Shown here: positions 13,426-41,360 of the stretch, piece by piece | Numbering within the stretch: the stretch's first letter is position 1 | Layout of the letters: each line of letters opens with the position of its first letter | Origin: Massilia sp. Root133 | GTDB taxonomy: Bacteria > Pseudomonadota > Gammaproteobacteria > Burkholderiales > Burkholderiaceae_D | Reading direction: 5' to 3' | DNA: 64,000 nucleotides | Assembly (NCBI RefSeq): GCF_001426525.1 | Contig: NZ_LMEW01000009.1 | Location: 1 to 64,000, forward strand | The notes under the pieces: model-generated | Told to the model about the DNA's origin: nothing | The model's input: only the letters and a program-made list of their open reading frames with translations | The model's database searches: none | Made by a program: the position numbers and the translations under genes

Positions 13426-13617
13426 ATGAAAGCAACGGAACTCCGCGGCAAGGACCAGGCAGCTCTGCAACAAGAGCTGAATGAGCTGCTGAAGGCACAG
13501 TTCGGCCTGCGCATGCAAATCGCTACGCAGCAACTGACGAACACCGCCCAGCTCAAGAAGGTGCGCCGCGATATCGCGCGTGTCAAGACTGTGATGAACC
13601 AGAAGGAAGCCAAATGA
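13426..13617 (+). CDS. rpmC: 50S ribosomal protein L29
   Basis: A 63-residue L29, a short helical-hairpin protein at the tunnel exit beside L23 ([20 protein letters not shown], then [23 protein letters not shown] C-terminal helix). AGGAG precedes the ATG. Its TGA overlaps the rpsQ start (ATGA). Confidence 0.96.
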
Positions 13618-13886
13618 ACGACACCACTAAAACGGCGCTGAAGCGTACGCTGGTCGGCAAAGTCGTGTCCGACAAGATGGACAAGACGGTGACCGTGCTG
13701 ATCGAACGTCACGTCAAGCACCCGCTGTACGGCAAGATCATCGTGCGTTCGAACAAGTATCACGCGCACGACGAGACCAACCAGGCGAAAATCGGCGACA
13801 CCGTCGAGATCGCGGAAGGTCGCCCGATCTCGAAGACGAAGGCTTGGACCCTGACCAAAGTTCTGCAGGTCGCTCCGGTTCTCTGA
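13614..13886 (+). CDS. rpsQ: 30S ribosomal protein S17
   Basis: A 90-residue S17, an OB-fold primary 16S rRNA-binding protein ([42 protein letters not shown]). It is the last gene of this S10 segment. After it comes a 354-bp gap that holds a palindromic repeat and a new promoter before rplN, although in many bacteria rpsQ and rplN are only tens of bases apart. Confidence 0.97.
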
Positions 13887-13903
13887 TCCAAAACCGGGGC
13901 CTT

Positions 13904-14005
13904 GTAAAACCGTAGCGAGCGGAAGCAGTGTTGGTCGAGAAGCGCAGCCGTACGGACGTACGGTGAGCATCGCAGACCGACAATGCGACGCGCAGTAGGT
14001 TTTAC
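13904..14005 (-). repeat. Dispersed palindromic element, copy A (rpsQ-rplN gap)
   Basis: A roughly 102-bp element with inverted ends GTAAAACC/GGTTTTAC and, further out, CCGGGG (13894-13899) with CCCCGG (14011-14016). The centre is a hairpin CCGTAC-GGAC-GTACGG (13948-13963). Read on the minus strand it aligns with copy B at 40238-40353 over almost its full length (shared GCGATGCTCAC, GCTGCGCTTCTCGACCAA, GCTCG-GACGGTTTT). Confidence 0.8.
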
Positions 14006-14026
14006 AACGCCCCCGGAAAATTTGTC

Positions 14027-14240: not shown

Positions 14241-14609
14241 ATGATTCAAACCGAAAGCCGGCTCGAAGTGGCCGACAATACCGGTGCAAAAGAAGTTCTG
14301 TGCATCAAGGTATTGGGCGGCTCCAAGCGCCGTTACGCCAGCATTGGCGACGTGATCAAGGTCACCGTGAAGCAAGCTGCTCCGCGCGGCCGCGTCAAGA
14401 AAGGTGAAATCTACAACGCCGTGGTCGTGCGTACCGCTAAAGGTGTGCGCCGCCAGGACGGCTCCCTGGTGAAGTTCGACGGCAATGCCGCCGTCCTGCT
14501 GAACAGCAAGCTGGAGCCGATCGGTACCCGCATCTTCGGACCGGTGACGCGCGAACTGCGTACCGAGAAGTTCATGAAGATCGTGTCCCTGGCACCTGAA
14601 GTTCTGTAA
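14241..14609 (+). CDS. rplN: 50S ribosomal protein L14
   Basis: A 122-residue L14, an intersubunit-bridge protein and the RsfS binding partner ([38 protein letters not shown]). It is the first gene of the spc operon, with its own promoter at 14027-14055 and a long leader. The ribosome binding site is GGGAAAG. Confidence 0.97.
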
Positions 14610-38960: not shown

Positions 38961-40127
38961 ATGGACATTTCATCCGCATCGCAAGCGCAAGGCGCGGCGT
39001 ACATCCGCCCGCCGGGCTTCTTCAAGCGCCTCACGGCCATCGACTGGCTGTTCGGCGCCGGCCTCCTGGCCGCCGCGCTGTACGCGCTGAGCCGTTTCGG
39101 CGCCTACATGGACATCTACGAGCGGGCGATCCTGGTGCTGGCCGCGCCGACCTTCGCCTTCGTCGGCTGGACCTTCAAGCCGGTACGCTGGCTGATGCCG
39201 CTCGTCGCGCTGCTGGCGCTGTGGGCCGTGCAATTGTATGGCGGCTCGCTCGATGCCGCGAACCAGAAATTTTTCCTGAAATACATGCTGTCGAGCCAGT
39301 CCGCGATCCTGTGGATGAGCGCGCTGTTCGTGTTCTCGACCGTGTTCTACTGGCTCGGTTTGCTCACCCGTTCGCCGTTCGGCGGCAGCGTCGGCTCCAA
39401 GCTGTGCTGGGCCGCCGTCGTGCTCGGCTTCACGGGCATGATGGTGCGCTGGTACGAGTCCTACCTGATCGGTACCGACGTCGGCCACATCCCCGTGTCG
39501 AACCTGTACGAAGTGTTCATCCTGTTCTCGATGATCACGGCGATGTTCTACCTGTACTACGAACAGCGTTACCAGACGCGCCAGCTGGGCCCGTTCGTGC
39601 TGCTCGTGATCTCGGCCGCCGTCGGCTTCCTGCTGTGGTACACGGTCGCGCGCGACGCCGCCGAGATCCAGCCGCTCGTGCCCGCGCTGCAGAGCTGGTG
39701 GATGAAGATCCACGTGCCGGCGAACTTCATCGGCTACGGCACGTTCGCGCTCGCGGCGATGGTCGGCTCGGCCTACCTGCTGAAGTCGCACGGCATCCTG
39801 GCCGACCGCCTGCCGTCCCTGGAGGTGCTGGACGACGTGATGTACAAGGCGATCTCCGTCGGCTTCGCGTTCTTCACCGTCGCCACGATCCTGGGCGCGC
39901 TGTGGGCCGCCGAGGCCTGGGGCGGCTACTGGTCGTGGGACCCGAAAGAGACGTGGGCGCTGATCGTCTGGCTGAACTACGCGGCGTGGCTGCACATGCG
40001 CCTGATGTCCGGCCTGCGCGGCCGCGCGGCGGCGTGGTGGGCCCTCATCGGCCTCGTCGTGACGACGTTCGCCTTCCTCGGGGTGAACATGTTCCTGTCG
40101 GGCCTGCATTCTTACGGCAAGCTGTAA
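38961..40127 (+). CDS. Cytochrome c biogenesis protein ResC/CcsA
   Basis: A 388-residue inner-membrane haem handling protein with about eight helices. The tryptophan-rich WWD motif is WGGYWSWDPKETWAL near residues 316-330, with conserved histidines in the flanking loops (HVPANF, HMRLMSGL). It forms the haem export and ligation complex with the ResB protein before it. A sequence gap of about 250 bp with a palindromic repeat separates it from msrP. Confidence 0.93.
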   Translation: MDISSASQAQGAAYIRPPGFFKRLTAIDWLFGAGLLAAALYALSRFGAYMDIYERAILVLAAPTFAFVGWTFKPVRWLMPLVALLALWAVQLYGGSLDAANQKFFLKYMLSSQSAILWMSALFVFSTVFYWLGLLTRSPFGGSVGSKLCWAAVVLGFTGMMVRWYESYLIGTDVGHIPVSNLYEVFILFSMITAMFYLYYEQRYQTRQLGPFVLLVISAAVGFLLWYTVARDAAEIQPLVPALQSWWMKIHVPANFIGYGTFALAAMVGSAYLLKSHGILADRLPSLEVLDDVMYKAISVGFAFFTVATILGALWAAEAWGGYWSWDPKETWALIVWLNYAAWLHMRLMSGLRGRAAAWWALIGLVVTTFAFLGVNMFLSGLHSYGKL

Positions 40128-40237
40128 TGTGTTCGTTTATGTCCGTTGGCGGGATTTGGTAACAAATCGGCGTCCGGACGACCCTGCGGCGGCAGATGGT
40201 GTAACGTTTATATGTCGCGAGAAACATCGGGCACGTT

Positions 40238-40353
40238 GAAAAACCTGCTGCGCGTTGCATATTGGTGGGGGCGCCCAGCCCTGCGATGCTCACTGTACTG
40301 TTCGTACAGCTGCGCTTCTCGACCAAATCTGCTGCCGCTCGCGACGGTTTTTC
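40238..40353 (+). repeat. Dispersed palindromic element, copy B (upstream of msrP)
   Basis: Inverted ends GAAAAACC (40238-40245) and GGTTTTTC (40346-40353), with GGGCAC (40229-40234) and GTGCCC (40357-40362) further out. The central hairpin is CTGTAC-TGTTC-GTACAG (40293-40308 region). It matches copy A (13904-14005, opposite strand) with an extra stretch of about 13 bp near 40266-40280. It ends 30 bp before the msrP start codon. Confidence 0.8.
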
Positions 40354-40382
40354 GAGGTGCCCTTTTTACAGCCGGAGCCGCC

Positions 40383-41360
40383 ATGTTGATCAGAAAAAAT
40401 CCGAACGGCATCGATTTGCCGTTCCCGTCCGAAATCACGCCGCGCGAGGTCTACGAAGGCCGGCGCGCGTTCCTTGCCAAGGTTGCGGCCTCGGCCGTCG
40501 TCGGCTCGTCGCTGTGGGAAATGGCCACGCGCGAAGCCTTCGCACAAGGTACGGTGCAAAAACTGCCGGCCACGCGCAACCCGGCGTTCTCGACGAACGA
40601 GAAGCAGACCTCGTTCGACGACGCGACCCACTACAACAATTTCTACGAATTCGGCACGGACAAGGCCGACCCGGCCGCCAACGCGCACACCCTGCGCACG
40701 CGGCCGTGGACCGTGCAGATCGAGGGCGAAGTCAAGAAACCGCAAACGATCGACCTCGACCGCCTGGTCAAACTGGCGCCGCTGGAAGAGCGGATCTACC
40801 GCCTGCGCTGCGTCGAGGGCTGGTCGATGGTGATTCCGTGGGTCGGTTATTCGCTCTCGAGCCTGATTCGCCAGGTCGAACCGACGAGCAACGCGAAATA
40901 CATCGAATTCACGAGCCTCGCCGACCGCAGCCAGATGCCGGGCGTAAAAAGCCGCGTGCTGGAATGGCCGTACGTGGAAGGCTTGCGCATGGATGAAGCC
41001 ATGCACCCGCTCACCCTGCTGACCGTCGGCATGTACGGCCAGGTGCTGCCCAACCAGAACGGCGCGCCCGTGCGCATCGTCGTGCCGTGGAAATACGGCT
41101 TCAAGTCGGCCAAATCCATCGTCAAGATCCGCTTCCTGCGCGACCAGCCGCGCACGGCGTGGAACGGCATCGCACCCGACGAGTACGGCTTCTATTCGAA
41201 CGTGAACCCGAACGTCGACCACCCGCGCTGGTCGCAGGGGACGGAGCGGCGCATCGGCGAGGGCGGCCTGTTCACGCCCAAGCGCAAGACGCTGCTGTTC
41301 AACGGCTATAACGAGGTCGCCTCGCTGTACACGGGCATGGATCTCAAGAAGTTTTATTGA
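40383..41360 (+). CDS. msrP: Methionine sulfoxide reductase catalytic subunit MsrP (YedY)
   Basis: A 325-residue periplasmic molybdoenzyme that reduces methionine sulfoxide in oxidised envelope proteins. The Tat signal has twin arginines at 27-28 ([12 protein letters not shown]). The molybdenum ligand is C143 in [11 protein letters not shown]. The ATG at 40383 is preceded by GGAG; the same frame is open back to 40146 through the palindromic element, but that part lacks a ribosome binding site. msrQ, its membrane partner, follows 12 bp later. Confidence 0.95.

Follow-up and report, generated by a model that had tools for sequence, protein, structure and literature searches.

In this study, we analysed a window of 64,000 nucleotides at the start of contig NZ_LMEW01000009.1 of Massilia sp. 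Root133, which holds two copies of a palindromic repeat (Table 1). Copy A lies, as initially annotated, in a gap between ribosomal genes, those of S17 and L14, and copy B between a cytochrome c assembly protein gene and a molybdopterin oxidoreductase gene. The repeat of about 100 bp described in the initial annotation is real; its length was understated, 13904-14005 being the inner part of a longer unit. The paired changes reported between the two copies are present at the ends (GTAAAACC/GGTTTTAC in copy A, plus strand, versus GAAAAACC/GGTTTTTC in copy B, minus strand) as well as at the centre (CCGTAC/GTACGG versus CTGTAC/GTACAG on the same respective strands). Among relatives the stretch behind rpsQ (13887-14020 of the window) is fast-changing, with the rplN side 97-99% identical.

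Table 1. Features of the two repeat copies and their neighbouring genes in the window
Feature	Position	Strand	Details
Copy A, whole hairpin unit with outer arms	13894..14015	+	122 nt; covariance model R1, E 1.1e-27
Copy B, whole unit	40228..40363	-	covariance model R1, E 1.6e-22
Copy A, 5' outer arm	13894..13911	+	pairs with 13998-14015; differs among copies; helix 1
Copy A, 3' outer arm	13998..14015	+	helix 1 of the covariation analysis
Copy A, apical stem-loop CCGTAC...GTACGG (copy B: CTGTAC...GTACAG)	13947..13962	+	helix 7
Ribosomal protein S17 gene, rpsQ	13614..13886	+	PF00366, ORF; stop codon 7 nt before copy A
Ribosomal protein L14 gene, rplN	14241..14609	+	PF00238
Cytochrome c assembly protein gene, left of copy B	38961..40127	+	PF01578
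Molybdopterin oxidoreductase gene, right of copy B	40383..41360	+	PF00174

The unit of ~122 nt is one long imperfect hairpin of 42 pairs. Read from the outside in on the plus strand of copy A, it consists of an outer arm of ~17 nt with two mismatch positions at regular places, a box CCGTAGC or CCGTCGC, three short helices (2, 3 and 3 pairs) with purine-rich loops between them, a longer helix of ~8 pairs that varies, two further fixed loops (GAGAAGC/GAGCATC) and, at the tip, the stem CYGTAC/GTACRG (helix 7), the last paired in 26 of 26 copies from the same genome. These 26 copies form alignment A1, which takes in 26 of 28 blastn places and leaves out one short and one truncated copy. Copy B has an extra stem of 13-14 nt in one internal loop, some form of which occurs in four other own copies of A1, five in all; one copy has a 15-nt extra stem elsewhere. 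Arm sequence varies from copy to copy, yet an arm consensus is common to many Massilia copies. Among the own copies, double changes were found at 22 of the 42 pairs. A wider set of 71 distinct copies, drawn from many genera and aligned to fit the structure, has them at 34 of the 42. It is the variable stems that hold these changes; the internal loops are near-invariant in both sets. Across the 26 own copies, 96.6% of 1092 cells were paired versus 85.9% (sd 0.6) in shuffles, 120 cells had changed on both sides versus 28.5, and none of five covariation measures was reached by any of 500 shuffles; because this alignment also yielded the structure, the figures are biased in its favour. Sliding the structure by 1-3 columns left only 29.1-43.2% paired.

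The structure belongs to one strand, which for copy A is the plus strand. On the copy strand, G·T and T·G pairs outnumber A·C and C·A pairs 102 to 19 in 49 Massilia-group copies and 120 to 21 in 57 other copies, 44 of the 120 coming from one conserved pair; these two sets make up 106 of the 150 rows of alignment A2, the 44 dropped rows being weaker opposite-strand or same-place readings. Twenty-seven gamma-class copies gave 47 to 6 (the gamma-class alignment A5 omits 3 of 27 copies, which have a long apical insert). The copy-strand fold was also more stable than its complement in 39/49 and 56/57 copies, and in 20/27 and 24/27 in sets of 27. It had been proposed that the fold is kept, and not the sequence alone, and our data agree: covariation, near-invariant internal loops and the one-strand excess of G·T over A·C support the view that the structure is kept by selection. 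The structured form may be RNA or single-stranded DNA.

The repeat is not confined to the window. Copy A finds 28 places, itself included, in its own 7.1-Mb genome by blastn, and a covariance model built from the 26 own copies (R1) finds 30 at E<1e-9, with paired substitutions; 27 of these score above 100 bits and one is a 67-nt fragment. Within the genus, 20 of 25 genomes carry the element, with 0 to 77 matches per genome, and in the family we found it in at least 58 of 116 genomes and 32 of 44 genera, counts that are lower bounds because 30 candidates were scored per genome. Hosts among the matches listed span many beta-proteobacterial genera, among them Massilia, Telluria, Ralstonia, Herbaspirillum, Collimonas, Zoogloea, Thauera, Aromatoleum, Rubrivivax and Pseudogulbenkiania, and also take in Solimonas. 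Sixteen genomes from other families of the order gave no match. A broader, beta-type model (R2), with 9 candidates scored per genome, found a form of ~145 nt elsewhere in the class: 17 of the 368 other genomes scanned have it, and they belong to ten further families. A third model (R3), built on the gamma-class elements, recovers copy A (67.2 bits, E 2.1e-17) and copy B (59.6 bits, E 3.4e-15), and R2 recovers every one of the 27 gamma-class loci (E<=1.1e-8), these loci having themselves been chosen with R2. Copy A matched nothing among plasmids and phages; three further elements gave a sole plasmid match of 44 nt, in a chromosome-sized Aeromonas record, and one further element searched against phages gave none. 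One copy in another genome of the genus (L067) is identical to a Massilia niastensis copy (L110) across the element and 300 nt on each side. In the own genome, C6:134951-135147 holds a full copy and, behind it, a piece of another, 67 nt long.

At orthologous sites, the unit is present or absent as one block, outer arms included. Among relatives with similar flanks, the whole unit of site B is absent in 8 of 9 and present in one. Absence was likewise seen in 6 of 7 relatives read for copy L010, 3 of 3 for L025 and 3 of 4 for L009, and by coordinates in 9 of 9 for L021, six of these being read as sequence. At the site of L024, two genomes (G009 and G160) lack the unit, two (G183 and G022) have other sequence in its place, and G179 has it by coordinates. 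Sites without the element hold no palindrome in four cases (B, L021, L024 and L025), which indicates that the arms travel with the unit, and the existence of relatives with similar flanks that lack the whole unit, outer arms included, argues that it is mobile. The suggestion of a mobile palindromic unit is therefore borne out, both by the spread of copy number in the genus and by relatives without the whole unit at several sites. We saw no constant target-site duplication at the sites compared with relatives.

With genes called by our own script, which is not a published gene finder, none of 133 copies lies inside a gene. The 3' end of the structured strand docks where a gene running into the unit from the other strand stops: it lies <=6 nt from that stop codon in 57 of 67 testable cases versus 12.2 expected, a value reached by none of 20000 simulations under a null of uniform placement that takes all positions in the gap as equally tolerated. 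This count leaves out 17 of the 133 copies, namely those flanked by no called gene and those that are secondary in a tandem. Without 13 same-site duplicates and 4 tandem copies (28 of 133 then out, same-site duplicates included), 49 of 58 are docked versus 11.3 expected. Recent own insertions are docked as well, after TGA in L025 and L009 and after TAA in L024. The 5' end shows no overall enrichment behind a same-strand stop (12/49 versus 8.8 expected), with a raised value in the own genome alone (8/14 versus 3.4 expected). Copy A is of this 5'-end kind, 7 nt after the S17 stop, and copy B is not docked. As a plain target motif the stop trinucleotide was rejected, being no commoner than chance in undocked copies when judged by eye.

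Taken together, the family reads best as a new ERIC-like family of mobile hairpins. We put at roughly 70% the probability that copies A and B are ERIC- or MITE-like, non-autonomous, non-coding mobile hairpins whose folded strand is recognised by a protein and which insert by preference behind stop codons. A putative trans-acting protein would use the internal loops to recognise the folded single strand, which it would insert at gene-free positions, most readily right behind a stop codon. Recognition of a folded single strand agrees with stems that drift around fixed loops, with the asymmetry between strands and with presence or absence as a block. Once inserted, the hairpin would open the 3' untranslated region of the gene and there, by analogy with ERIC, could act on mRNA ends through stability or processing. 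Later internal deletions would leave short arm-only palindromes. Against this reading, no transposase linked to the element and no constant target-site duplication were seen at the loci examined, the 5' end is not enriched behind same-strand stops overall, template switching at palindromes could couple arm changes without selection on RNA, and the docked message contains not the structured strand but its complement.

The same docking would be expected of an ordinary cis-acting element of mRNA 3' ends, a terminator or stabiliser inherited vertically, whose quick gain and loss mimics mobility. Such an element would account for the position on stop codons and for the recurrence of the same docked gene across genera or species: L7/L12 recurs (L118 and L133), as does a PilT-family ATPase (L131 and L142), and the docked gene of L100 has the same C-terminus as PstB of L121. 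FtsZ (L130) is a further docked neighbour in another genus. Nevertheless, a sequence-related unit of fixed length that is cleanly absent in near relatives points to copying, and so do tandem copies, which in other genera are spaced at ~110-126 nt (L152:5521-5892, L094:3043-3294, L092:657-903 and L150:4920-5156; the argument from copying was drawn for L152 and L094). By eye, the printed flanks show no U-tract directly after the stem, which speaks against an intrinsic terminator. The complementarity of docked message and structured strand counts against this explanation too. We regard it as unlikely.

Palindromes moved in trans are also known from the REP/REPIN system, with its RAYT (Y1) transposase. 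Like our element, these are palindromic and intergenic, with many behind stop codons, and a position of REPs behind genes is described in PMC3733652; the outer box CGTAG or CGTCG moreover resembles their GTAG and CGTC tags. Y1 transposase genes (PF01797) occur in 13 of 13 genomes examined, and four of these genomes are without the element, which weakens the association. The present unit, however, is 3-5 times longer and one asymmetric hairpin, with the tag-like letters inside a loop, and two mirrored REPs of 20-40 nt, as in a REPIN, were not found in it. Among 30 Y1 matches, none of the 10 loci read has an element within 1.5 kb. Orientation shows no bias relative to replication, at 33:34 in G022 (67 of 72 matches, the five weakest rows omitted) and 28:18 in G087 (46 of 46), with replichore ends estimated by sampling 20 stretches of 20 kb in each genome, noisily so in G022. 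Movement by a RAYT is therefore very unlikely. The neighbouring genes did not single out a mobility gene either, the largest protein cluster being common to 11 of 80 element loci, and neither the Y1 loci nor the shared neighbour proteins revealed a transposase linked to the element.

Site A adds a further kind of form. Of 61 genomes with this site, 30 were read, with the full unit in 2, a half-deleted one in 1, an arm-only palindrome in 8, other partial palindromes in 3 and nothing in 16; at the site of copy L016, 5 of 5 relatives read hold an arm-only palindrome. Between two orthologues of site A (G000 and G170), the arms show a paired change, GGGG/CCCC versus GGAG/CTCC. Arm-only forms fit internal deletion of a full unit; at sites A and L016 the order may also be the reverse, with insertion into an older short palindrome. 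Generalised, this would mean that a host palindrome already in place receives the element in its loop, and that the outer arms of the element are host DNA. The differing arm sequences among copies, and the arm-like short palindromes of relatives at these two sites, would agree with that. It is contradicted at the four palindrome-free empty sites listed above, for which a second mechanism would be needed, and the arm consensus of many Massilia copies also opposes it, so we consider it highly improbable. Template-switch correction of quasi-palindromes is a known mutational process that could couple arm changes with no selection on the fold, and the arm-only remnants of site A are indeed near-perfect palindromes differing among relatives, but it should have corrected the mismatched internal loops too. 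These are near-invariant, in the 26 own copies as in the 71 diverse ones, and G·T pairs exceed A·C pairs on one side only, making this account scarcely credible.

ERIC is described, in PMC2229807 and PMC2759123, as an imperfect intergenic palindrome of 127 bp that is mobile and transcribed; the first of these also attributes to it TA termini with target duplications and an orientation-dependent effect on the stability of upstream mRNA. The likeness to ERIC, IRU or RU-1 lies in size and in the intergenic palindrome, here a 122-nt hairpin with 0 of 133 copies in called genes, and the difference in the TA termini with target-site duplication, which were not seen in the present element. RUP, Correia/NEMIS, YPAL and other bacterial MITEs, given in PMC2229807 as mobile long stem-loops of 100-170 bp, resemble it in size, stem-loop and mobility, a comparison made by description only; by description they are also set apart, the present element showing no constant duplication at the sites compared. 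Core strings of the element appear in no bacterial-repeat paper among the matches listed.

The relation to ERIC can be taken further. The reverse complement of the ERIC consensus, compared with gamma-class elements, had a ten-best mean of 31.3 on the expected strand versus 17.7 on the other; palindrome-keeping shuffles averaged 21.0 (sd 1.98), and 0 of 300 reached 31.3. Against beta elements, the consensus scored 29.2 versus 24.1 (sd 3.23) for shuffles, 4 of 60 of which reached the score. Run over 58.9 kb of E. coli DNA, R3 had best matches that were mostly ERIC, at E 0.45-0.9 beside a non-ERIC match at 0.59; these weak matches covered two of four E. coli ERIC sites and missed two, and R2 matched none of the E. 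coli ERIC sites. Six distinct E. coli ERIC sites were read, and two of them show docking in the same orientation, lying behind the stops of ybhI (by 1 nt) and cusC (by 6 nt). On the strength of the shuffle test, the weak R3 matches and these two docked sites, common descent of ERIC and the present family appears likely, short of being shown.

The catalogue of small RNAs already contains part of the hairpin family, under the name sX9. Rfam sX9 (RF02228), a Xanthomonas sRNA, exceeds its gathering score of 44 in 4 of 15 gamma-class loci (L343 51.6, L340 49.9, L339 46.8 and L350 45.2), where it spans the apical loop to the outer arm on the opposite strand of the ~145-nt elements; R3, built on such elements, also matches both window copies. 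Rfam, by contrast, models 76 nt with small local stems and not a full hairpin, and files sX9 as an sRNA gene. An Rfam scan of the window and of the locus of copy A found nothing at the element, and sX9 was not above the Rfam cut-off in the window or in the 8 beta-type loci scanned. In published work, sX9 ranks with the 20 most prevalent sRNAs of bacterial genomes and has no assigned role (PMC9029176); it is also listed for two Herbaspirillum strains (PMC6337395), and in Xanthomonas several sX9 genes go up under copper (PMC10924375). sX9 shows that there is transcription of strands of this kind. Our data suggest that sX9 is so often counted because it is half of a mobile repeat; if it is, the reading of such annotations changes.

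A bolder extension, which we hold to be very doubtful, is that a single old superfamily of mobile hairpins, moving via folded RNA, has ERIC, sX9 and the beta-proteobacterial unit as its branches. Here the 3' end of an RNA would be placed at the stop codon and copied into DNA from the free 3' end of the coding strand, and such copying would produce the observed polarity of gene, stop codon and complement of the structured strand. If true, an RNA-copied unit of this kind would be a bacterial counterpart of SINE-type retroposition. The anatomy described here, with its stem drift, fixed internal loops, one structured strand and polar docking on stop codons, makes it testable how repeats of the ERIC kind move and what role they have.

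Two minor observations concern the edges of the element outside the window. In two genera (L128 and L168), the unit appears, as judged by eye, to lie directly behind a tRNA-like 3' end, and at L086:1621-1729 an Rfam anti-hemB match of 45 bits (cut-off 49.5) starts at the element edge.
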